A stretch of 64,000 nt of DNA, taken from NCBI RefSeq assembly GCF_947497025.1, contig NZ_CANMFC010000004.1, positions 248,001 to 312,000 on the forward strand. Reading direction: 5' to 3'. This document shows, piece by piece, positions 5,814 to 35,866 of the stretch (its first letter is position 1; every line of letters begins with the position of its first letter). The notes below the pieces were generated by a model. It had not been told where the DNA came from and searched no databases. It was given only the letters and a program-made list of their open reading frames with translations. The position numbers and the translations under genes were made by a program. This DNA comes from an uncultured Kushneria sp. (GTDB lineage: Bacteria; Pseudomonadota; Gammaproteobacteria; Pseudomonadales; Halomonadaceae).

Positions 5814-6225
5814 GATGGATCCCCTGATGACGCTGGCGACGACGGGGTTTTCTGACCACCGGACGTCGCACCGGATCGCGGCGAATTCGCCAACGAATCG
5901 ATTTCTGGATCAGCTCGCTGCCCCCGGGCACCGGGATGCCCATCTTTTCCAGCTGCCACTGGATGCGGCGGTAGACCCAGGAGGTGGGGCGCCCCCGTCT
6001 CAGGCGGCGCATGAAGGTGCCGCCGAACCACAGAAACAGAGCCGCGCCCAGGAACATGCAGGTCGGAACCATGGCCCCCATGCCCACGATGGCCCAGCCG
6101 ACGATCCCGACAGGGATGAAGAACACCAGACCCGACGCGGCGCAGATGACCAGCTCCTTGCCGGTCATGCCGCGAAAGACCACGGGCGTGGCGTTCAGGC
6201 GAGAGGGAATGAACTCGATGGTCAT
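5803..6225 (-). CDS. ICE conjugation membrane protein (TIGR03750-like)
   Basis: 'PSRLNATPVVFRGMTGKEL' N-terminus; synteny. Confidence 0.8.
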   Translation of the reverse strand: MTIEFIPSRLNATPVVFRGMTGKELVICAASGLVFFIPVGIVGWAIVGMGAMVPTCMFLGAALFLWFGGTFMRRLRRGRPTSWVYRRIQWQLEKMGIPVPGGSELIQKSIRWRIRRDPVRRPVVRKPRRRQRHQGIHHES

Positions 6226-6240
6226 GGCCCGACGTCTCCC

Positions 6241-20169: not shown

Positions 20170-21030
20170 TTATCGAGGAGTGTCAGCGATCTGGCAAGGA
20201 GCAACGGCTGCCTCCGTGCGCGCCCTGAACCAGCAGCCCCACTCTCGAGTGCGTGGATACCCCAGTCGATCAAGATGCGGAGGTATCGCTCCCCGGGCGC
20301 TGCGATCGGTGCCGTAATGATGGCCACCCTTCTCGTTCAGGTAGTCGATGATCTGCTCGATATGGCGCTCCTTGTCCGGCTCCGATGACAGAAATTCGTC
20401 CACCATGGCCATGGTCCGTTTGAACGGCGTCATGTACTCGGTCTCTCCCCCTTTCGCTCCCGGCTGAGCGATACGCATGTCGGGATTGAGCTGGTCGATC
20501 AACCGATGTGCCGATCGGCGCGCGCCCGGTTGAATGCGTGGCGCGATACGCCGAGTGATGCTGTAGCGCTGCGGGGAAATCTCGACCTCTCCACCGTAGC
20601 GGATTTCCACGGCGGGCTGCTTCTCGATCGACATGAGCCCGATATCGAACTGTCGCAGCAGCCACCACAGCAGATTGTTGGACCGATATTGAGGCCGTTT
20701 GCAGGCGACCCAGATCAGATGAGGCATGCCCGCCTGCTCCGGCCGCGAGTGTGTTCGCCACCGGCTAGCCTGTTCGATCACACCCAGCGTCAACGTGCGC
20801 TTGCACTCGAAGACCTGGCAGATTCCCCGGCGCGTCGCGATGAGATCGGGGCGGCCCGCGAAGGTCTCCAGTACCACCTCGGGATAGGTCTCCCAGGATT
20901 GAGCGCGCAGCCGTTGATCGACTACCCACGCGATTTCCGTCTCGGTCATTTCCTTATCGAAGGCACCCGGCTCCTCGCCAGTTCCGGCAAGATACTCGGT
21001 GCAGTTGGACTCCCACTCATCGTGATGCAT
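20170..21030 (-). CDS. Predicted PD-(D/E)XK nuclease-like protein with winged-helix-like C-terminus
   Basis: 'FAGRPDLIATRRGICQVFECKR' matches (P)D...ExK core; start overlaps topB stop (TGATG). Confidence 0.6.
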   Translation of the reverse strand: MHHDEWESNCTEYLAGTGEEPGAFDKEMTETEIAWVVDQRLRAQSWETYPEVVLETFAGRPDLIATRRGICQVFECKRTLTLGVIEQASRWRTHSRPEQAGMPHLIWVACKRPQYRSNNLLWWLLRQFDIGLMSIEKQPAVEIRYGGEVEISPQRYSITRRIAPRIQPGARRSAHRLIDQLNPDMRIAQPGAKGGETEYMTPFKRTMAMVDEFLSSEPDKERHIEQIIDYLNEKGGHHYGTDRSARGAIPPHLDRLGYPRTREWGCWFRARTEAAVAPCQIADTPR

Positions 21031-22964
21031 CACCCCTGTCCTCCCTGAGCTGTCCTGGGCTTCGATTTGCGGCGTGGCTTCGCCCTCGGTGCTTCGGGGA
21101 GATTCAGCTGGGGACGCTGAAGCGCGATACCGATGAGCTTGTCGAGCAATGTGCTTTGACGCTCCATGAAATCCTCCAGCGTCATCGCCCCCTCGGCGAC
21201 CTGATCCAGCGCCTGCTCCCACAGGGCTGTCATCCCCGGGTTGCTGATCTGAGGTGGCAATGCCGCGATGAGACCCTGGCCAACCGGTGTCGAGACGATC
21301 GTGCGCCCTTTTTTCCGGATGAAGCCTCGCCTGAGCAGCGTCTCGATGATGCCGGCGCGTGTCGCCTCGGTACCGATGCCGGCACTCTCGCGCAGTCGCG
21401 CTCGTAGCCGCTCATCTGTAACGAACCGGGCCGCGTTCTTCATCGCCGAGATCAGCGCACCCTCGGTAAAGGGCTTCGGCGGTTGGGTCTGACGATCCCT
21501 CACCAGTAGATTCCGTACCGAACAGCTCTCCCCCTGACGGAGAGGCGGGAGCGCCTGCGCGCCGGAACCTTCTTGCTCCTCGTCGTCACCGTCCTGCCCT
21601 TTGCCCTTCCCTCGGGGGAAGAGCACCTTCCAACCCTCGACCTGTACCTGTCGGCCCGAGGCCACGAACGTCTCGCCGGCGAGATTTAGCCTGGCATCGG
21701 TCTGGTCAAACTCGTGGGCCGGCAGGAACTGCGCCAGGTAGTGGCGACGGATGAGATCGTAAACCCGGAACTCCTCGTCGCTCATCCGATCGATACGGCA
21801 AGGCGCCGTGGTGGGAATGATGCCGTGGTGAGCTGTGATCTTGCTGTCGTTCCAGACGCGGCTCTTGAGCGTCTGGTCAAGTCGACCGATCACCGGGGAG
21901 AGCTTCTCATCCGAATGCAGGAGCGCCGTCACGACGGCCCCGACCTCGGACAGCATCGATGTCGGCAGATAACGGCAATCGGTACGCGGGTAGCTCGTGG
22001 CTTTGTGGGTTTCGTAGAGGGACTGGGCGATGTCGAGAACCTGCTGGGCACCGAAGCCGTATCGCTTCGAGCACTCCTGCTGCAGCGTGCCGAGATCCAT
22101 CACCAGCGGCGCCGACTCTTTTTTCCGTGACGTCTCGATGGCCGCGACAGTCGCCGCCGCGCCCTGGCATCGGGATGCGACCGCTCGCGCCGCTTCAGAA
22201 TTGACGCATCGCCCCTCCTCGTCGAGCCAGTCAGCGTTGGCCGGCAGCCACTTTGCCTGAAACGAACCGCCCTCCGCCTGCAGGTTTGCCACCACCTCCC
22301 AGAACGGTTTGGGGACGAAGTTCGCGATCTCCTGGTCACGTCGGACGACAAGCGCCAGCGTGGGCGTTTGCACCCGGCCGACTGACAGGACGCCCTGATG
22401 ACCCTGCTGCTGAGCCAGCACCGAGAACGCGCGGGTCAGATTCATCCCAACCAGCCAGTCCGCCCGGGAACGGCCCAGTCCCGCCTGGTACAGCGGATAC
22501 GTCGACTCTCCCGGACGGATGTTGGCCAGCGCCTTGCGAATGGATGCCTGGTCGAGCGCAGACAGCCAGAGGCGAGAAACGCGACCCTGATAGCGGCAGG
22601 CGTCGAGGATCTCGCGACCGATAGTCTCGCCTTCTCGATCGGCATCGGTGGCCACCACTACCTCGCTGCACTGCTTCAGCAGCCCCTGGATCACCTTGAA
22701 CTGCTTACTGGCATCCTTGCGCACCGTGTTTTTCCACTGCGCTGGACGGATCGGTAATGACTCCAGCGACCAGCGCTTCAGCTCGGGATCGTAGGCTTCA
22801 GGAGGGGCTTGCTCGAGGAGATGGCCGAAGGCCCAGGTCACGACGACTCCATCGCCCTGGAGACAACCATCGGCTTTACGGGTCGCCCCCAGAACCGCGC
22901 CAATATCACGCGCCTGAGAGGGTTTTTCGCAGAGAAACAAACGGGACATGACACCGGGCCTCAC
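21030..22964 (-). CDS. topB: DNA topoisomerase III
   Basis: 'MSRLFLCEKPSQARDIGAVLG...ATDADREGETIGREIL...SVGRVQTPTL...ATRAGIIETLLRRGFI'. Confidence 0.95.
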   Translation of the reverse strand: MRPGVMSRLFLCEKPSQARDIGAVLGATRKADGCLQGDGVVVTWAFGHLLEQAPPEAYDPELKRWSLESLPIRPAQWKNTVRKDASKQFKVIQGLLKQCSEVVVATDADREGETIGREILDACRYQGRVSRLWLSALDQASIRKALANIRPGESTYPLYQAGLGRSRADWLVGMNLTRAFSVLAQQQGHQGVLSVGRVQTPTLALVVRRDQEIANFVPKPFWEVVANLQAEGGSFQAKWLPANADWLDEEGRCVNSEAARAVASRCQGAAATVAAIETSRKKESAPLVMDLGTLQQECSKRYGFGAQQVLDIAQSLYETHKATSYPRTDCRYLPTSMLSEVGAVVTALLHSDEKLSPVIGRLDQTLKSRVWNDSKITAHHGIIPTTAPCRIDRMSDEEFRVYDLIRRHYLAQFLPAHEFDQTDARLNLAGETFVASGRQVQVEGWKVLFPRGKGKGQDGDDEEQEGSGAQALPPLRQGESCSVRNLLVRDRQTQPPKPFTEGALISAMKNAARFVTDERLRARLRESAGIGTEATRAGIIETLLRRGFIRKKGRTIVSTPVGQGLIAALPPQISNPGMTALWEQALDQVAEGAMTLEDFMERQSTLLDKLIGIALQRPQLNLPEAPRAKPRRKSKPRTAQGGQG

Positions 22965-24240: not shown

Positions 24241-24642
24241 TTAATTGGATTCGCCGGCCGCTTTTCGTTGCTGCTGCAGCTTTTTCTGAATCAATTCTTC
24301 GGATCGCTTGCTCTCACAGTCATCTCGAATGTCGGCAAGTTCGTCTCTGGTCACCGGTCGTTCCGCTTGACTCAAATGACGTCTCAGAGACGTCGCGACA
24401 CAAGGGGTGCTGTTCAAACTCTCTTTCACTTCCGAATCAGACAATGGCTGTTCCAGGTGGACCTCCCAGGCCAACAATGCGCCACCAGCAATAAAGACCC
24501 CACCCATCAAAAGCGCTTTACTAAACGTCGCTTTCACAGAGGCGAGATTTTTCTTATCACCTCTCGAAACCCACAGGTCGTATCCTGCGACAGCGATAAA
24601 CAACAGCCCTACGACTACTAAACCGACAGCCGCGTAAATCAC
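24241..24642 (-). CDS. ICE two-TM membrane protein
   Basis: Hydrophobic segments; overlaps ssb stop. Confidence 0.55.
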   Translation of the reverse strand: MIYAAVGLVVVGLLFIAVAGYDLWVSRGDKKNLASVKATFSKALLMGGVFIAGGALLAWEVHLEQPLSDSEVKESLNSTPCVATSLRRHLSQAERPVTRDELADIRDDCESKRSEELIQKKLQQQRKAAGESN

Positions 24643-25130
24643 GAATCGCTACCGCTTGAGCTTGCTCCGGATTCCATCGGGTTAGCCCACTCTCCTTCGT
24701 CTCCGGCGGACTTGGAATACGCCCCCTGGGGCGAAGGCGGCTGACGAGGTATCTGCTGTCCCTGAGAGGGCTCGAGCACGACCTGGGTGACGCGGAACGG
24801 CAGGATACCGATGCGAACGGCCTGCACCTTGAACTGCGACCGGCTGTTGCCCTCATTGTCCTGCCACTCGTCCAGCACCATGCGGCCCGAGACCATGACC
24901 CGCATGCCCTTCTGGTACAAGCGAGCCCACTGTTCGACATCGCGATGCCAGATCTCGACGTTCGCCCAGAACCCGCCCTTATCGACATTGCCGGTATCGG
25001 TCGGCACCGGATTGTCGAAACGGACGTTCAGGCGCATGACACCACGCGGTGGCTGATTGCCATTGGGGGAGAACATCTTCACTTCCGGATCGGAACCGAT
25101 GTTCCCCTCGCCCATGAAATGCGTGCTCAT
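24639..25130 (-). CDS. ssb: Single-stranded DNA-binding protein (ICE ssb)
   Basis: OB-fold-like sequence, acidic/PQ-rich linker; ICE position next to topB. Confidence 0.8.
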   Translation of the reverse strand: MSTHFMGEGNIGSDPEVKMFSPNGNQPPRGVMRLNVRFDNPVPTDTGNVDKGGFWANVEIWHRDVEQWARLYQKGMRVMVSGRMVLDEWQDNEGNSRSQFKVQAVRIGILPFRVTQVVLEPSQGQQIPRQPPSPQGAYSKSAGDEGEWANPMESGASSSGSDS

Positions 25131-25239: not shown

Positions 25240-25692
25240 TCAGACCATGGCCTCGACTTCATCAAGATCGTTGAGCAGGCGGTTCAGGCGATCGACCTGG
25301 CGTGTGGCCGCCGCGATTTTGGCATTGAAGATTGCGCGCTCGGTCTCGATCTCGACCAGTTGACGTTTCATCCCTACCGACACGTCGCCGTACTGGAGCA
25401 CGGCCTCGAGAAGGCGTCGCCCCATCTGGGTCTGCGCCTTGTCGCGCCATTGCACTGCGCGAACTCGTCCCCCGCTGTTGTTGTGCGGTTTAAGCCAAAG
25501 CCCCGCCTGAACCACCGTGCGGTTGTAGCGGTTGGCAAAGTCCGCCGCCTCTTGCCACATCCGACGACACTCCGCATCCAACTCATCCCGAAATCGAAGA
25601 ATCTCCCCTTTACCCTTAAAGGGTTTTAAAAGGCCCTTTGCGTACTGATTCAGTGCAAAGTCCTGACGCTGTTCCAGTGCAGTCATCGCGCT
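25240..25692 (-). CDS. ICE protein of the ssb-TIGR03761 interval (DUF3158-like position)
   Basis: Coding-like from MTALEQRQDF; ORF-track N-terminus runs into repeat array. Confidence 0.55.
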   Translation of the reverse strand, partial: SAMTALEQRQDFALNQYAKGLLKPFKGKGEILRFRDELDAECRRMWQEAADFANRYNRTVVQAGLWLKPHNNSGGRVRAVQWRDKAQTQMGRRLLEAVLQYGDVSVGMKRQLVEIETERAIFNAKIAAATRQVDRLNRLLNDLDEVEAMV

Positions 25693-25750: not shown

Positions 25751-26003
25751 GTGTTGCCAGTGGCAACACCCTGGCCTGTCTCTACCTGGAGTGTTGCCAG
25801 TGGCAACACCCTGGCCTGTCTCTACCTGGAGTGTTGCCAGTGGCAACACCCGCCTGTCTCTACCTGGAGTGTTGCCAGTGGCAACACCCGCTTGTCTCTA
25901 CCTGGAGTGTTGCCAGTGGCAACACCCGCCTGTCTCTACCTGGAGTGTTGCCAGTGGCAACACCCTGGCCTGTCTCTACCTGGAGTGATGGCAGTGCCAT
26001 CAC
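25751..26003. repeat. Array of seven 19-nt palindromes (GTGTTGCCA-G-TGGCAACAC x6, GTGATGGCA-G-TGCCATCAC x1) separated by 19- or 21-nt near-identical spacers
   Basis: Palindromes at 25751, 25791, 25831, 25869, 25907, 25945 and 25985. Confidence 0.97.
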
Positions 26004-26011
26004 CTGCAGCA

Positions 26012-26779
26012 TTAGTCCTCCGAGGCACCGGACTGGGGCAGCAACTGGTCGTCGTCCAGGTCCGCGCCTTCGAGCTTGTGTGCCTGATCGCTGCCGGACG
26101 ATGAGGCCTCCTCACGCCGGATCGTCGGCGCAAACTCGCTGCGGCGCGTCCCTTCCAGAATGTCCTGCGGCAGCTCACCGTATTTCTCGAGAGCGTCCCG
26201 CGCCTTGGCGTTGTTGGCCGCGAAGTCATCCCGCGTTGCCCCGCTGAACCCGGGGAACTTGACGGGGGCGTAGCAGAGCGAGCGCAAGGCATGACCGCCC
26301 TGATCACGGATCATCGCGCCGCGCTGCTTATTGCCCAGCAAGCCAATGTGATGCGCCAGCAGGACATCGCGCACGATGCTGTCGTACTGCATCAGCAACA
26401 TGACGGCCTGCCAGCCCATCTGCCCGCCGGTAAACACGGGCGTCACGAACGGTTGCTGGCTGACGTTGCGGCTGACATCGAGTCCTTCCGGGATCTGCTT
26501 CAGCACACTGCTGACTCGAGTTTCCAGCTGCTGCAGCGCCTGTCGGGTCTCGTCGACCTTCTCCTCGAGCATGAGCAGCCAACTATCGGCATAGGGATCG
26601 TCTCGGCCCGCTGCCTGATGAACACGACCAGCAAGCGACAGGAACTGCTTGAGGCCGACTACCTGCGGTTTGCCGCTCTCGACGCCGCGCCCATGCCAGG
26701 CAAGCACTGCCGGATAGGTATGCAGGGTCATCTCGATCTTGCTGCGTAGCTGCCCTACACGGGGCTCAGTGCTGGCCAT
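26012..26779 (-). CDS. ICE protein TIGR03761-like (PFL_4669 family)
   Basis: 'LRSKIEMTLHTYPAVLAWHGR...GLKQFLSLAGRVHQAAGRDDPYAD'. Confidence 0.82.
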   Translation of the reverse strand: MASTEPRVGQLRSKIEMTLHTYPAVLAWHGRGVESGKPQVVGLKQFLSLAGRVHQAAGRDDPYADSWLLMLEEKVDETRQALQQLETRVSSVLKQIPEGLDVSRNVSQQPFVTPVFTGGQMGWQAVMLLMQYDSIVRDVLLAHHIGLLGNKQRGAMIRDQGGHALRSLCYAPVKFPGFSGATRDDFAANNAKARDALEKYGELPQDILEGTRRSEFAPTIRREEASSSGSDQAHKLEGADLDDDQLLPQSGASED

Positions 26780-26877
26780 AATCACTCCTGAGTCGTCGAT
26801 GCACTGGATGGGATGCCAGCATCAGGGGTCGATGAGCATTGCCCTACCGGAAATGTTAAACGCGATCTCACGGGTTT

Positions 26878-28125
26878 CTAGCGCCGCAGTCCGAGGCGCT
26901 TGAACATCTCCCCTCGCGCCTGTTCGGTTGCCGCCGACATCGGCTGCGGTTCCAGCTCGGCCGGCTTGGGCGGCGACATCGCCACCACCGGCGCGGTAAC
27001 GACCTGGTTCTGTTCGTCACTCGTCTCGGCCTGGCCTCGCCGCTTGTTGGCGACGCTGCGCCCGAAGTGGGTCAGCTGGAAATTGTCCGAGGCGGCACGC
27101 TTGGCCAGGGTGTGTAGGAAGCCCAGGGTGTTCTTGACCTTGCCGGCATCGACCCGCCCGGCGGCTTCGTCGATCACCGCCTGCTGCGTCTCGGTCGACA
27201 ACCCCGTCAGCAGGAACGCGACCGATTCCCGCTCGTCGGCAGTCAGCTCGAGTGGCCAGCTCCAGACCAGCGAAGTGTCGCCCGGCTCGCGCGCGGTGGT
27301 TTTACACACACTGTTTGTATAACTACGTACTGTAGGGCGAGTTGCATCGGAAACTGCGTCGTAAGTGTCTGATTCACGCATGAGTTTCCGCTGGAAACTG
27401 GGGGAATTCGCTTCCGGAAACTGTCCGAGTTTCCGCTGGAAACTGGGTGCATTTGGCTGAGTTTCCGCCGGAAACTGGGTATCTGGTGACTGAGTTTCCG
27501 CTGGAAACTCTGCGCGCTTCTGCCGCTCCGCACGCTGGTCGATGACATCGAGTCGGGTCGGCAGTTCGAGCACACCGCCCTCGGCCAACTCGTCGCGGAC
27601 GAGTTGCGCCACCTCGGCGACATCACGGTTGTGGTGTCGAGTGCAACGGATGACGTACTCGATGTACTCGGCATCCAGTGACAGCGACTCGGCGGGTGCC
27701 AGCGGCTCGTCGTGCAGCACGTAGACGTTACCGATCATGCGTCCGTTACCGGTGTTCCGCGCTTTCATACCCAACGTCATCCAGCGGGTCAGCCTGAGGA
27801 TCGCGATGACACGCGCCACGGTCTTGCGTGACGCCTTGCGGTTCGCACCGGAACGCAGCAACGGCTCCAGTTCGTCATAGGTTGGGAAAGCGGTGGTGCG
27901 GTCAGCATTCGAGAGCAGTCGGATCATCTGCCACCCAAGCACGTCGACCGCGCCCAGGCGTTGATCGAGTAGCAGGGCTCGGGGAACGGTTTCATGGGGA
28001 TTGCCCATGAACAGCAGACCGTCGAGCGCATCCTCCTGACCGCTTGACGCCGAGGCGGCCTCGCCTCGGCGTTGAGTCATGGATGACGCGGCGCGCCCGA
28101 TGAGCGCGTCAAAATGTTTCATCAC
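26878..28125 (-). CDS. STY4528-family ICE protein
   Basis: Family position between TIGR03761 and DUF2857; 'LDGLLFMGNPHETVPRALLLDQRLGAVDVLGWQMIRL'. Confidence 0.75.
   Translation of the reverse strand: MMKHFDALIGRAASSMTQRRGEAASASSGQEDALDGLLFMGNPHETVPRALLLDQRLGAVDVLGWQMIRLLSNADRTTAFPTYDELEPLLRSGANRKASRKTVARVIAILRLTRWMTLGMKARNTGNGRMIGNVYVLHDEPLAPAESLSLDAEYIEYVIRCTRHHNRDVAEVAQLVRDELAEGGVLELPTRLDVIDQRAERQKRAEFPAETQSPDTQFPAETQPNAPSFQRKLGQFPEANSPSFQRKLMRESDTYDAVSDATRPTVRSYTNSVCKTTAREPGDTSLVWSWPLELTADERESVAFLLTGLSTETQQAVIDEAAGRVDAGKVKNTLGFLHTLAKRAASDNFQLTHFGRSVANKRRGQAETSDEQNQVVTAPVVAMSPPKPAELEPQPMSAATEQARGEMFKRLGLRR
27383..27509. repeat. Intragenic dyad repeats AGTTTCC-GCY-GGAAACT (four intact, one degenerate)
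   Basis: 27383-27399, 27428-27444, 27460-27476, 27493-27509; partial copy near 27410-27423. Confidence 0.95.
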
Positions 28126-28736
28126 GCTACCCCTTCACGCACCACGCCCTCGTCCTCGGCAAGCAGGCTTTGTTGTCGCGCCTGCTCCGGCTGGGTCCAC
28201 TGCTTGATCAGGGTCCAGATCACCGCCAACGGCAGCGCGACCTCTTCAGCCAGGACCAGCATGCCGCGAATGTCTTCCACGGCACCGGGACCGGACGGAT
28301 CGTCAGAAATGGTCTGCCAGCGGTGGTACGCCTCGTGCTCTATCTTCTCCTCCGGCATGGGCAGGCGTCCCTGCCGGCTCGGCACGCCCAGCAGCGTGCG
28401 ACGCGCCGAGCAGTCGTTCGGGGTCAGACCGAAGAAGGTGCTCAGCATGTGCACGCTGGCCCCGTGTCGAATGCAGTGATCGACGAGCCCATCGCGATCC
28501 TGGTCGCGATCGACGCGGCGCAGCGCCGCTTTGAAGGTGTCGTGATCCAGCTCGAACCGGGCCACGCCCGGAAACTCGTGGATCAGGGACTCGATCTCGC
28601 TGGCCCGCAGCCGACTGAGACTCTGCAGCTCATCGTCGCGGAAGCCCAGCGCGCGAGCGCGACGCATGTCGCCCTCACGAATCAGGATCAGCGCCTGGTT
28701 GAACAGCGCATGGTTGAGTTGCGGTGTCGCCATCAC
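28122..28736 (-). CDS. DUF2857-domain ICE protein
   Basis: Position after ParB; 'LNHALFNQALILIREGDMRRARALGFRDDEL'. Confidence 0.75.
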   Translation of the reverse strand: MMATPQLNHALFNQALILIREGDMRRARALGFRDDELQSLSRLRASEIESLIHEFPGVARFELDHDTFKAALRRVDRDQDRDGLVDHCIRHGASVHMLSTFFGLTPNDCSARRTLLGVPSRQGRLPMPEEKIEHEAYHRWQTISDDPSGPGAVEDIRGMLVLAEEVALPLAVIWTLIKQWTQPEQARQQSLLAEDEGVVREGVA

Positions 28737-30772
28737 GAATCCCCCTCTGCATTGAGCACGTCACGCAGCACCCGGATCAGCCGGGTCAGCCAGAACACAC
28801 GAACGAAGAGACCGTCGGGCAGACGCACCTCGGTGTCGTCACCATGACTGCCCACCAGTTCTCCCAATAGCGAGATGTCGCTCGGCATCACCGGATCGAT
28901 GTTGCCCTCGAGACCGGCGAGCAGTTGCCAGACGAGCTGAGCACGACGGCTGGGTGCGCCCTCAAGGGGACCGAGTTCGTAACCGATACCGTCGCGCGCA
29001 TTGAGGCGAATGACCTCGCTGGATCCGCTGGCCTCAACGCCGGCCCAGCTGGCCAGCACCTGGACCACTTCACCAATCTGCATGCGTAGATCCTGAGCGT
29101 TGCGACGCCAGGTCGGCACATGCCAGAGATCCGTGATCGGGGCGACACGGCCACCGTCCTGCAGCGGTACGCTTTTGAGTGCCGCTGCCTCGAAGTCGAT
29201 GGCCTCCTCGCCGTGTTCCTTCGCCTGCCAATGACGCAGCTGGCGATGGCCCTCCGTCTCGTGGTGTGGAGAGAGGGTCAGATCGGCGGCGATGGTCGCC
29301 TGCTCTTCGGCAGAGCGGGTCGGCTGAAGTGTGTGCTCCTGCAGCAGACCATCGGTGTCCAGTAGCCCGCCGGCGTTGTCGTTCCAGTCGTCATCGAAGC
29401 TGCCGCCCTGTGGGGCCACCGGTGTTCGCTGGGTCTGAGCCTCGAGTTCGGCGTTGCGCTGCTCGAGCTGCTCGAGCTGGGCGCGCATCTGTTTCATGGC
29501 GACCGACTCGCCTACCCCGCCCGCATCCGGCACACCGCGCGCCGGCGACGGTTCCGGCGCGGGATCGAGGTCGCTCTGGCCATCGCCGAAGGTCAGATCA
29601 TTGGGGTCGAGTTCATCGTCATCGCCGGTGGGTTCGCTACCGCTACGAGAGGTTTTGGCGGTCGATGGCAGAGAGGAAGGAGCCGACGACTTGCCGGACG
29701 ACGAGCCACCCGGAGAAGTATCCGGTTTTGGCGGATAAAGGTGGCGCTCCTGGGGATGACGCAGGCGCTCCAGTTCACTATCGACAGTGGTCCAGATATC
29801 CGCGCGCTCCTCGTCCGTTGCCGCCCGGGCATACTTGCGTACGGTGAACCAGTTCTTCCACGCCATGTCGATGGGGTTGAAGTGCAGACCGGTGTGCTCG
29901 TTGAGCATGCCCTTCAAGCGATCTTCGACGATGTTCCAGCGGAATTCGGTCTGCCCCTCGTGATCGAGCTGGGCCATCTCCTCATGCCAGGCCAGCGCGA
30001 AATCGCCGTCGACGACGTTGTTGGCCCAGTGTTCCCCCTCGCCCAAGTCATCGGCGTGCTCGATCCAGTAGTCGGCACAGCGGGTCCAGCACTCGTCACA
30101 GAACTGGCGATAGGAGATCAGCTTCTCGATCTGGGGACGGCCCATTCCCGCATCCAGTGATAAAGGTAGCGTGGGGAGAAAGTGCTCGATGGTGTAGAGC
30201 ATCCGACTTACGTGGCCATGATTGATGGTGTAACCCAGCACGCGAAGCCGCTTGGTCAACTCGCGCTGGGAGATGGTCTCGCCGGCGTCCTCCTCGATCA
30301 TGCGTTTGGCCTCGAAGATCCCGCGTGCCCGCTCGATCCAGCTCAGTTGCCCCCGGTTGTCGTTCTCGGCCAGGTGGCCGGCAAGCACGTTGATCTCGCC
30401 CTGCCACGGGATGAAATGGCAGTCCTGGTGATAGAAGGACTGATCGCCCGTCTCCTGATACAGCTCATTGAGAATGGTCAGGCGGGTATTGCCCCCATCG
30501 GAGATCATGTAGCGGTCATCGCCGGGACGCTGCGTGACGGTCAACTTCTGCTTGAGTCCGACTGCCTTGATCGACGCCTTGATCTCATCGAACTTGGGGT
30601 TGTGATGGGTTCTGGGGTTGCGATCGTAGGGACGCAGCTGATCCAGCGTGAGCGACATCGCCTGTTCGCGGGTCGGTGCCGGCAGCCGATCGGTGGGCTG
30701 GCTCCTGAGCGTCGGCCCCGGCTGGTTCAGCTTGGCCGTGATCTGATCGGGGGTAACGGATGGTTTACTCAT
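28733..30772 (-). CDS. ICE ParB-family protein (TIGR03764-like)
   Basis: ParB/Srx region 'YDRNPRTHHNPKFDEIKASIKAVGLKQKLTVTQRPGDDRYMISDGGNTRLTIL'. Confidence 0.88.
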   Translation of the reverse strand: MSKPSVTPDQITAKLNQPGPTLRSQPTDRLPAPTREQAMSLTLDQLRPYDRNPRTHHNPKFDEIKASIKAVGLKQKLTVTQRPGDDRYMISDGGNTRLTILNELYQETGDQSFYHQDCHFIPWQGEINVLAGHLAENDNRGQLSWIERARGIFEAKRMIEEDAGETISQRELTKRLRVLGYTINHGHVSRMLYTIEHFLPTLPLSLDAGMGRPQIEKLISYRQFCDECWTRCADYWIEHADDLGEGEHWANNVVDGDFALAWHEEMAQLDHEGQTEFRWNIVEDRLKGMLNEHTGLHFNPIDMAWKNWFTVRKYARAATDEERADIWTTVDSELERLRHPQERHLYPPKPDTSPGGSSSGKSSAPSSLPSTAKTSRSGSEPTGDDDELDPNDLTFGDGQSDLDPAPEPSPARGVPDAGGVGESVAMKQMRAQLEQLEQRNAELEAQTQRTPVAPQGGSFDDDWNDNAGGLLDTDGLLQEHTLQPTRSAEEQATIAADLTLSPHHETEGHRQLRHWQAKEHGEEAIDFEAAALKSVPLQDGGRVAPITDLWHVPTWRRNAQDLRMQIGEVVQVLASWAGVEASGSSEVIRLNARDGIGYELGPLEGAPSRRAQLVWQLLAGLEGNIDPVMPSDISLLGELVGSHGDDTEVRLPDGLFVRVFWLTRLIRVLRDVLNAEGDS

Positions 30773-31275
30773 GAGGTCCACTCCGGCTGCCGCGAGGCGC
30801 AGCCATCAGAATCGAAAAAATGGTTCAACTGCTGGTTGAGACGACCGATGCTCTGGGTCAACCCGTGCAGGCTCAGGTCGCTGCGCGTCTGCGGCGGATG
30901 CTGCTGGCACAGCGCCTGCAGGCCACGACGCAGATCGAGCAGGTTGTCATTGACGATCACCAGCAGCTCGAAATCGCTGAGGTCGAAATACTGGAGCTGT
31001 GCCCAGCGCAGGCTGTGGTGGGGCTCCATCTCAAGCCGACTGGCCCTGTCGCAGGCCATGTGGAAGACCAGCCAGGTATCGGCGAGCAGCGAGCGCAGCG
31101 CATCGTTGCGCTTGTTGTGCGCCCGGGGATGCGCCGCGAACCAGGACTCCAGTGTCTCGACCCAGCCGGCAAAGGGATCGAGCAGTCCCAGGGCCAGACA
31201 TTCCCGGCCCAGCAGATAGCGTTCCATGCCCCGGTCGGTCGCAGCGCGTGTCGGAAACGTGACGATCTCAGCCAT
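30769..31275 (-). CDS. ICE hypothetical protein
   Basis: Start ATG 31275; four-base overlap with parB. Confidence 0.6.
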   Translation of the reverse strand: MAEIVTFPTRAATDRGMERYLLGRECLALGLLDPFAGWVETLESWFAAHPRAHNKRNDALRSLLADTWLVFHMACDRASRLEMEPHHSLRWAQLQYFDLSDFELLVIVNDNLLDLRRGLQALCQQHPPQTRSDLSLHGLTQSIGRLNQQLNHFFDSDGCASRQPEWTS

Positions 31276-33028: not shown

Positions 33029-34433
33029 GAGCGCGCCTCCTGTACCTGTTTCCACGCCAAAGACTCGAACCGGGTGCTCGAGCCCACGAACGTCAGATGC
33101 ACCGTGCCGGTGGGACCGTTGCGCTGCTTGCCGATGATCAGCTCGGCCAGTCCCTTGTTGTCGGGGTTATCAGTGTTGTAGACCTCATCGCGGTAGACGA
33201 ACCCGATGACGTCGGCGTCCTGCTCGATCGCGCCGGAGTCGCGCAGATCGGCCATACAGGGGCGCTTGTTGGGTCGATTTTCTAGCGTGCGATTAAGCTG
33301 AGAGAGCGCCACCACCGGGCAGTTGAGATCCTTGGCGGTGGCTTTGAGAATCCGCGAGATCGCGGAGATCTCGTTGTTGCGGTTCTCGCAGCCCGGCTCC
33401 TCGAGCAGCTGCAGGTAGTCGATGAGGATGAGGGCCGGCTTGCCATGGCGGCGCATCAGCCGACGGGCACGAGACTTGAGTGAGGTTGCGGAAAGCCCGC
33501 TGGAGTCGTCCACGAACAGGCGCTCTTCGAACCCGAGTATGCGATTCGTGGCGGAGGTCAGCTTCTCCCAGCCTCCATCGTCGAGCTGCCCTGAGCGCAG
33601 CTTGCTCAGATCCAGCCGCCCCATGCTTGCCATCAGGCGCAGCATCAGCTGCTCCTCCGGCATCTCGAGCGAGAAGACGAAGATCGGTGCCGTGGCCAAC
33701 TCGGTACGGCCCGCCGTGGCAACCAATGCATTCTCGACGAGGTTCATCCCCAACGTCGTCTTGCCCATCGACGGGCGGCCGGCGAGGACGATCAGATCGG
33801 AGTCCTGCCAGCCGCAGGTCAGCGCATCGAGATCCTGGTAGCCGGTCGGCGTGCCAGTAATGCCGTCCTTGGCGTTGAAGGCGCGATCAATGGTATCGAT
33901 CGCCGCCGTCAGTGCCGGACGTATGCCGGTTTCCTTGCCCTGCCGATTTTCGGCCAGCTCGAACAGTTGACGCTCGGTGGCTTCGATCAACGCCTGACTG
34001 AGCTGCTGCCCATCCAGCGCCCGCTGACTGAGATCGCGCCCCATGTTGGCCAGTTGCCGGCGACGCTGATGCTCGCGAACGATGCCGGCATAGGCGACCA
34101 CATTGGTAGCCGACGGTGTGTGACGGGCCAGCTCGGCCAGGTAGGACAAGCCGCCGCAGGTCTCGAGATTCCCATCGCGCTCCAGAACTTCGGAGAGCGT
34201 CACCACATCCAGCGGCTTTTCGTCATGGGATAGCGCTTCCATCGCCTTGAAGATCAGCCGGTGCGGGTACTGATAAAACGCGCCGGCATCGACGATTACG
34301 CAGATGTCATCCCACTTGGTGTTATCGAGCATCAACGCACCCAGCGTGGACTGCTCGGCCTCGATGCTATGCGGTGGCAGAAGCCCCATGGCCTCGGCTT
34401 CGGCGGATGCCGGGGATGCGGCTTCAATGGACA
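33025..34433 (-). CDS. dnaB: Replicative DNA helicase DnaB (ICE-encoded)
   Basis: 'LPPHSIEAEQSTLGALMLDN...VLAGRPSMGKTTLGMNLVENAL...SQLNRTLENRPNKRPCMADLRDSGAIEQDADVIGFVYRDEVY'. Confidence 0.93.
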
Positions 34434-35314
34434 TGACCCACCCCCGATTTTTCGGTGCCGGTTTTACCGCTCGGTGCATTGGTGCCCACCGCGCGAATGG
34501 CATCGGCCCACTCGGGATAGAGATCGATGGCCACGGCTTTGAGCTGGTCGGCACAGGCCGGTGCCTTACGGCTGTATGGCTTGCGCGGCTCGACCCGGTG
34601 AACGGGCAAGCCCTGCAACGCTGCCGAACGATAGGCGGAGAGATTGACCAGCGGCGTCTCGAGCACGCTAATGCCGTGATCTTCGACCTCGGCATACATG
34701 GTGCGAATACTGTCGGCAATGTCGCGGGCATCGCGCAGCTGGTCGGTCATCTTGTTGAGCAGGATGGAGACCGGCGGCACCTCGAAACGGGTATAACGTG
34801 CCAGCTCGCGCAGCTCATTGAGCATGCCCTGGGTGCCACGCACGAATTCGCGCGCGGTGAGCAGTTCGGGAACGATGGGAGAGATCAGCCGATCGGCGGC
34901 CATGACGGCCATCTCGAGAATCACCGAGCGCGCGCCCTGGGTATCGATCAGGATGGCGTCATAGCGATCGGCGAAGCGATCGAGCAGGTCGATCAGCCGG
35001 AAGCGACCATTCGGGGCATTGAGCAATAACTGCTGCAACTGATTCCGATAGTCGTTGGAGACGATGATGTCGAGATTGGGGATAGCGGTGTGCGAGATGA
35101 TCTGGTCGAGGTCGACCAGTTCTGTCGCGAGCAGCTCGTACACCCCACCAGGGGCAGGCTGGGACAGCTCATAGTAGGAAGAGAGGGTTGGCTGGGAGTC
35201 GAGGTCTATGAGCAGGACCCGTAGACCGGCGTCTGCCAGGAGACCGCCCAGATTGGCCGTCGTGGTGGTTTTCCCGACGCCGCCCTTGGAGCAAACCGTT
35301 GCTGAAACACGCAT
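34424..35314 (-). CDS. parA: ParA family ATPase (ICE partition)
   Basis: 'CSKGGVGKTTTTANLGGLLADAGLRVLLIDLDSQPTLS'. Confidence 0.93.
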   Translation of the reverse strand: MRVSATVCSKGGVGKTTTTANLGGLLADAGLRVLLIDLDSQPTLSSYYELSQPAPGGVYELLATELVDLDQIISHTAIPNLDIIVSNDYRNQLQQLLLNAPNGRFRLIDLLDRFADRYDAILIDTQGARSVILEMAVMAADRLISPIVPELLTAREFVRGTQGMLNELRELARYTRFEVPPVSILLNKMTDQLRDARDIADSIRTMYAEVEDHGISVLETPLVNLSAYRSAALQGLPVHRVEPRKPYSRKAPACADQLKAVAIDLYPEWADAIRAVGTNAPSGKTGTEKSGVGHVH

Positions 35315-35394: not shown

Positions 35395-35470
35395 TGGCTC
35401 CCTGAGCAGGACTCGAACCTGCGACCCAGCGATTAACAGTCGCTTGCTCTACCAACTGAGCTATCAGGGA
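35395..35470 (-). tRNA. tRNA-Asn (GTT), copy 1, ICE-proximal
   Basis: TCCCTGATAGCTCAGTTGGTAGAGCAAGCGACTGTTAATCGCTGGGTCGCAGGTTCGAGTCCTGCTCAGGGAGCCA. Confidence 0.97.
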
Positions 35471-35504
35471 TCGATATGAATGCTTCCCGACACGATGATA
35501 GCGA

Positions 35505-35580
35505 TGGCTCCCCGAACAGGACTCGAACCTGTGACCCAATGATTAACAGTCATTTGCTCTACCAACTGAGCTATCAGGGA
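35505..35580 (-). tRNA. tRNA-Asn (GTT), copy 2
   Basis: Cloverleaf with G-T wobble in acceptor stem. Confidence 0.96.
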
Positions 35581-35601
35581 ACAACGAAGTATCAGATTTT
35601 T

Positions 35602-35677
35602 TGGCTCCCCGAACAGGACTCGAACCTGTGACCCAATGATTAACAGTCATTTGCTCTACCAACTGAGCTATCGGGGA
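35602..35677 (-). tRNA. tRNA-Asn (GTT), copy 3
   Basis: Perfect acceptor stem TCCCCGA/TCGGGGA. Confidence 0.97.
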
Positions 35678-35789
35678 ATGTCTTCCGAATACGCGGCGTA
35701 GTATACGTATTTCAGAAAAAACGTCAAGGGCCTGATAAAGACCCCGGCGTTATTCGCGACGATCATACGACACGAATATTGCCTGTCGC

Positions 35790-35866
35790 TGGTGGCTACG
35801 CCCTGATTCGAACAGGGGACCCCATCATTATGAGTGATGTGCTCTAACCAGCTGAGCTACGTAGCC
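35790..35866 (-). tRNA. tRNA-Met (CAT)
   Basis: GGCTACGTAGCTCAGCTGGTTAGAGCACATCACTCATAATGATGGGGTCCCCTGTTCGAATCAGGGCGTAGCCACCA. Confidence 0.96.

Follow-up and report, generated by a model that had tools for sequence, protein, structure and literature searches.

The locus studied here raises the question of what a row of perfect palindromes does between two genes of a single operon, and why the symmetry of such palindromes is kept while their letters change. The window, a 64,000-nt stretch of DNA from an uncultured Kushneria sp., a salt-loving bacterium, includes an ICE that carries seven perfect 19-bp dyads on its minus strand at 25751–26003 (family B), as established by sequence inspection and motif counting. 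The dyads, 19 nt each, start at 25751, 25791, 25831, 25869, 25907, 25945, and 25985, and the start-to-start distances of 40, 40, 38, 38, 38, and 40 leave spacers of 21, 21, 19, 19, 19, and 21 nt. Copy 7, GTGATGGCAGTGCCATCAC, departs from the other six, and both changes in one arm are matched in the other; read on the minus strand, this compensated variant (GTGATGGC-ACT-GCCATCAC, 25985–26003) lies 8 nt past the stop codon of a PFL_4669-like gene. The motif GTGNTNNNNSNNNNANCAC has seven matches in the window, all in the array, compared with 0.48 expected, and none of 100 shuffles reached seven. A pattern spanning both unit types also occurs seven times in the 3.53-Mb genome, all in this array. 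Since both unit types are confined to one place, the array is not a dispersed REP-like repeat, and dispersed palindromes of the REP/BIME type were ruled out.

The array is embedded in a minus-strand operon that runs in the order ParB (TIGR03764), DUF2857, STY4528, PFL_4669-like, array, DUF3158, and ssb, with topB further on. Profile matches place the ParB-family gene at 28733–30781, the DUF2857 gene at 28122–28736, the STY4528-family replication protein gene at 26878–28125, the PFL_4669-like gene at 26012–26785 (TIGR03761, 229 bits against a cut-off of 110.7; Pfam AcaB), the DUF3158 gene downstream of the array at 25240–25686, ssb at 24639–25130, and the module's topB (DNA topoisomerase III) at 21030–22964. 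The start of the DUF3158 gene was set at the ATG at 25686 (MTALEQRQ); a longer ORF, reaching to 25809, would enter the array. A ParA-like ATPase ORF, its family named by inspection from the Walker motif, lies on the same strand at 34424–35314, and four tRNA genes beside it (35398–35866, minus strand) probably mark the integration end of the ICE. The sequence-only reading had described a seven-copy array with these coordinates and spacers, a compensated seventh copy, a position between a TIGR03761-like gene and the next gene of the same operon, and an ICE encoding both ParA and ParB, all of which were confirmed.

A scan with the PFL_4669-like protein yielded 80 loci, and 40 of the 275 genomes searched across the Halomonadaceae have its gene. 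Most of the relatives examined carry array-type palindromes in the same operon, either directly behind the PFL_4669-like gene or in the interval that separates it from STY4528, and ICEs of the pKLC102/PAGI-2/PFGI-1 kind from both gamma- and betaproteobacteria have such palindromes in their replication module. Among relatives of this ICE in the Halomonadaceae, wherever the region is covered, 8 bp-3 nt-8 bp stem-loops follow the PFL_4669-like stop codon in 2 to ~27 copies. Their arms include GTGTTGCC, GTGATGCC, GTGATTCC, GTGTTTCC, GTGATGGC, GTGATGAC, GTGTTGGT, GCTATGGC, and others, around centres of ACT, AGT, GGG, CCC, GCC, and GGC. In Pseudomonas and several other genera, the palindromes stand before the PFL_4669-like gene, with up to ~16 copies per array, and are of the types GTGNTNCC/GTGNTNGG and (G/C)CTATNCC. 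The array of pKLC102 has 16 units with a 57-bp period, one of which, GTGTTGCCACTGGCAACAC, is identical to the window's 19-mer on the minus strand; the count fits the sixteen 57-bp repeats that Klockgether et al. 2004 reportedly described in pKLC102. One seemingly missing array (L157) proved to be a masked stretch (N) rather than a real absence, and no match to the Enterobacter ICE region was found in the E. coli genomes searched. The idea that the palindromes are scattered operators was rejected, as GCTATCCCC-type sites number just three per genome in three genomes, all inside the module, and CTATACC-type sites are confined to the array in two genomes.

To examine the symmetry of the arms, every GTG-N13-CAC in the array regions was taken, conditioned on its three outer pairs, and scored at pairs 4 to 8; the conditioning was limited to three pairs because circularity had to be avoided. 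Among 311 copies from 52 loci, 254 (82%) are fully paired at pairs 4–8. When identical copies of an array are counted once, 135 remain, of which 90 are fully paired; re-dealing the left and right halves among the copies of each array gave a mean of 37.8 (sd 4.7) and never more than 53 in 5000 shuffles. The count of paired copies is conservative in that a few imperfect sequences are chance matches, and slightly biased the opposite way in that the better-paired of overlapping matches was kept. The shuffle does not give an exact probability, because tandem duplication makes the copies of an array related. The pairs themselves vary, with A-T, T-A, and G-C used at pair 4, G-C and T-A at pair 6, and C-G and G-C at pair 8. 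This excess over re-dealt halves indicates that exchangeable half-sites, as in a simple dimer-binding site, do not explain the symmetry. It had been proposed from the window that the dyad is under selection, with symmetry conserved while the arms drift. The comparison of related ICEs bears this out to a large extent: palindrome arrays are present, their arms drift by matched changes, and symmetry is kept far beyond half-site exchange. Non-compensated mutations do occur, in 57 of the 311 copies, for example GTGATTCC-ACT-GTAATCAC in L010, L024, and L025. Because such copies exist, the symmetry rule is strong but not absolute. Copy spacings cluster near 36–40, 45–51, and 57–59 bp; helical phasing of these spacings was considered and is not significant (resultant length 0.35 at 10.5 bp, 0.13 on distinct values).

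The speed of this turnover is seen in a comparison of the window with the element of Salinicola rhizosphaerae (L010). The two share 99% identity in the PFL_4669-like protein, 97% in ParB, and 94% in STY4528, but the window's arms are GTGTTGCC-ACT and those of L010 are GTGTTTCC-GGG, each homogenised over six copies. Since the arms differ although the proteins are near-identical, these proteins probably do not read positions 4 and 6 or the centre. Most arm positions are thus probably not read by ParB or the PFL_4669-like protein, which weakens a simple sequence-specific model. Symmetry at such seemingly free positions suggests either that the dyad itself is selected or that one arm is repaired or copied from the other.

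The module contains a second set of palindromes that differs from the array and was overlooked in the sequence-only reading. Four palindromes of the type AGTTTCC-nnn-GGAAACT (family A; (C/G)AGTTTCC-nnn-GGAAACTC) start at 27382, 27427, 27459, and 27492 (27382–27510, minus strand), within the linker-coding part of the STY4528 gene. Across 78 distinct STY4528 genes, 121 perfect 7-bp/3-nt palindromes were counted, compared with 11.9 expected and a maximum of 22 in 200 synonymous codon shuffles. They are located at codons ~202–283, apart from a minority of unrelated ones elsewhere, and they are read in all three frames, giving QFPAETQ and SFQRKL in the window and EFGIRTQ and SSDSELS in Pseudomonas. 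Their arms are matched and lineage-specific (AGTTCGG, AGTTTCC, AGTACTC, AGTTCTC, and AGTTCGC). Family A is therefore under selection at the DNA level. In the AlphaFold model of STY4528, a disordered linker (pLDDT <50 over much of 210–283) covers these sites and connects an N-terminal part, in which helices and strands follow the winged-helix order H-E-H-H-E-E, to a C-terminal part that is helical. A Foldseek search with the whole model and with its N-terminal part gave no match with E <0.001, so the winged helix is predicted from the order of helices and strands, and a profile search of solved structures with STY4528 found nothing convincing. In two ICEs of Steroidobacteraceae-type hosts that share the module (L074 and L077), STY4528 and family A are both absent while ParB and family B are kept, which indicates that family A goes with STY4528 and that family B does not need it. 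The family A palindromes are candidate binding sites of STY4528.

It is reported that the RepA protein of pSK41 binds, through an N-terminal winged helix, four Rep boxes that lie inside rep in its linker-coding part (PMC5703833). STY4528 resembles this RepA_N arrangement in its predicted N-terminal winged helix, in a linker encoded over four palindromes, and in its separate C-terminal part. It differs in lacking any match to RepA_N by sequence and any significant one by fold, in the palindromic nature of its sites, in its Gram-negative ICE host, and in a second palindrome array outside the gene. As no RepA_N homology was found, the resemblance is an analogy; STY4528 may work like a RepA_N initiator but is not assigned to that family.

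A corresponding pair of palindrome sets has been described in PFGI-1 of Pseudomonas fluorescens Pf-5, where Mavrodi et al. located a putative oriV directly upstream of PFL_4669. Its A+T-rich half contains four perfect 23-bp palindromes (CTGAGTTCGGAATCCGAACTCAGT), and its G+C-rich half consists of four 46-bp repeats that each include a 21-bp inverted repeat (PMC2647930). Iteron-like and inverted repeats are common to the oriVs of pKLC102, SPI-7, and PAPI, and it is on those grounds that oriV was postulated (PMC2258188). The two published palindrome sets of PFGI-1 are families A and B. The window shares the main features of these regions: its array lies within the ParB-DUF2857-STY4528-PFL_4669-DUF3158-ssb operon, inverted repeats of ~20 bp adjoin PFL_4669, though on the opposite side of the gene, and four palindromes occupy an A+T-richer half upstream, inside STY4528, where the local G+C content is 50% against ~63%. 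Both have the same operon and two palindrome families, one in STY4528 and the other beside PFL_4669. However, the array of the window and other Halomonadaceae follows the PFL_4669-like gene whereas that of pKLC102/PFGI-1 precedes it, the period is 38–40 bp rather than 46–58 bp, and the in-gene arms read AGTTTCC rather than AGTTCGG. A tandem array of ~20-bp sites beside a replication gene also recalls iteron origins, but iterons are conserved direct repeats, whereas the units of the array are dyads with arms that differ from one copy to the next.

The first part of the DUF3158 gene, a short way downstream of the array, contains an A+T-rich element that is ultraconserved at the nucleotide level (TACGCAAAGGGCCTTTTAAAACCCTTTAAGGGTAAAGGGGAG, 25603–25644, minus strand; AARGGCCTTTTAAARCCYTTTAARGGTAAGGGG) across 70–80 relatives from gamma- and betaproteobacteria. 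Its synonymous sites are fixed, with Leu TTA, Phe TTT, and Gly GGT each in 70 of 70 relatives and Leu CTT in 57 of 57. It may be part of the origin to which the array belongs, as an unwinding or initiator element. Further indications come from two complete 8,046-bp circular plasmids of P. aeruginosa, NZ_CP147626.1 (L160) and NZ_CP147623.1, each of which is one circularised stretch of a pKLC102-like ICE. The stretch begins inside the array, takes in the PFL_4669-like, DUF3158, and topA region, and reaches the following gene; its two ends are joined within the array. The circles carry part of the array and the ultraconserved element, lack the STY4528 and ParB genes, and contain no other recognised replication gene. 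They suggest that the side with the array and the PFL_4669-like gene can be maintained, possibly by means of proteins that a full ICE supplies, and offer only circumstantial support for autonomous replication from the oriV-like region; alternatively, the circles may be an assembly product or an excision product without replication of its own.

Considering these features together, the array is rather probably the G+C-rich palindromic half of a putative oriV/maintenance region of a pKLC102/PAGI-2/PFGI-1-type ICE, bound as dyads. The dyads would act as a double-stranded cluster, with a dimer of a DNA-binding protein of the ICE on each, and the nucleoprotein complex so formed would govern partition, copy number, or both, of the excised circle. 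Family A would provide the initiator STY4528 with its own sites, bound by its N-terminal winged helix in the manner of RepA_N Rep boxes. For the array, ParB would be the first choice among candidate binders, since family B is kept without STY4528 and ParB is encoded in the same operon; the chance that it is indeed the binder seems to us somewhat below even, yet higher than that of STY4528 or of a third protein of the operon.

If ParB is the binder, the array could be a parS cluster and nothing more, with ParB loading on the dyads and ParA segregating the excised circle without any role in replication. The cognate ParA and ParB genes near the array, as at a parS centromere, the persistence of family B in elements lacking STY4528, and its freely varying copy number, up to ~27, favour such a centromere. 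A precedent exists in IncC ParB, which binds 22-bp inverted repeats present in 14 copies in plasmid R55 (PMC10954446). The IncC/SGI1 parS (ParB-KorB) resembles the array in that a conjugative element carries several inverted-repeat sites associated with a ParB-family protein (PMC10954446), but its sites are scattered singly and have a fixed 14-bp core (TTTCACATGTGAAA), whereas the window has a tandem array, drifting arms, and another motif. Searches for the chromosomal and the IncC parS motifs gave no match at the array, so the earlier proposal of a parS-like site is not supported for these known consensus types; as parS motifs are clade-specific, the missing matches exclude these two types only. 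The change of arms beside a near-constant ParB also speaks against a pure centromere, which we regard as a tentative explanation. A further reading starts from the mutational process. Template switching may copy one arm onto the other, and tandem exchange may homogenise the array, in which case the pairing requires no selection. Matched changes at seemingly unread positions beside genes still 97–99% identical, the homogenisation of whole arrays (six identical copies in both the window and L010), and mismatches free of wobble bias are all in line with it. On its own, it leaves unexplained the constancy of GTG and T5, the persistence of arrays across genera, and the STY4528 palindromes kept in three frames, and as a sufficient cause it is somewhat unlikely, but it can coexist with an oriV/maintenance role of bound dyads.

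The earlier suggestion of serial RNA hairpins, which would tune or protect the operon mRNA or bind an RNA-binding protein, agrees with the position of the array between two genes of one operon, a few nucleotides past a stop codon. Selection on the sense RNA would leave more G.U-compatible than A.C mismatches, however, and the two are about equally common, with 18 G.T versus 15 A.C; an apparent bias in a small first sample was gone in this larger set, and RNA hairpins are therefore not favoured. An Rfam search of the window returned only tRNAs, with no family at the array, the loop is not conserved, and other elements carry their palindromes before the PFL_4669-like gene or further downstream, so that this suggestion is not supported and seems very improbable. 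Hairpins of single-stranded DNA, acting on a strand exposed during strand-displacement or rolling-circle replication, for instance as priming or initiator sites, are a further possibility. Arms covary as base pairs at otherwise free positions, the central triplets can be non-palindromic (GGG, CCC, GCC) and loop-like, ssb and topB belong to the operon, and the array, as ssDNA, folds far better than shuffles (z −7.4), as any palindrome array would. Strand displacement has also been suggested for pKLC102, as relayed by a citation in PMC2647930. Nevertheless, GTG and T5 are kept as bases beyond mere pairing, A.C mismatches are as frequent as G.T, and the arms are short, with copies cross-pairing in the predicted fold, which leaves this reading unlikely. 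Recognition of the dyads by symmetry, as hairpin or cruciform, rather than by sequence, with selection keeping the pairing while the letters turn over, is likewise a minor possibility; under it, the sites of co-resident relatives would diverge quickly while their proteins stayed unchanged.

The widely distributed elements of the pKLC102/PAGI-2/ICEclc kind spread catabolic, virulence, and resistance genes, their replication origin has so far only been postulated, and no parS is defined for them in the literature examined. The present comparison supplies exact, short candidate sites of two kinds together with the ultraconserved element, in gamma- and betaproteobacteria, and the natural 8-kb circle narrows the candidate origin/maintenance region. 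Because the arms change fast yet almost always stay matched, this presumed origin, so far little understood, should be easy to map and to test, and rapid, symmetry-keeping site turnover beside near-unchanged proteins offers a case in which to ask whether the symmetry of palindromes arises by selection or by copying. As far as the searched literature shows, the extent of this turnover, the three-frame DNA-level selection in STY4528, the relocated Halomonadaceae array, and the ultraconserved element beside it are new.

The arrays of individual elements also show some peculiarities. Three loci (L158, L128, and L021) have arrays of >20 dyads, and in L158 two different dyads alternate strictly every 36–37 nt. 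In L018, the array and the DUF3158 gene are separated by an inserted gene for a small predicted membrane protein (~5940–6230). In the ICEclc-like elements (L036–L089), single CTATNCC-type palindromes are also found downstream of the DUF3158 gene, ~980–4300 nt after the PFL_4669-like gene.
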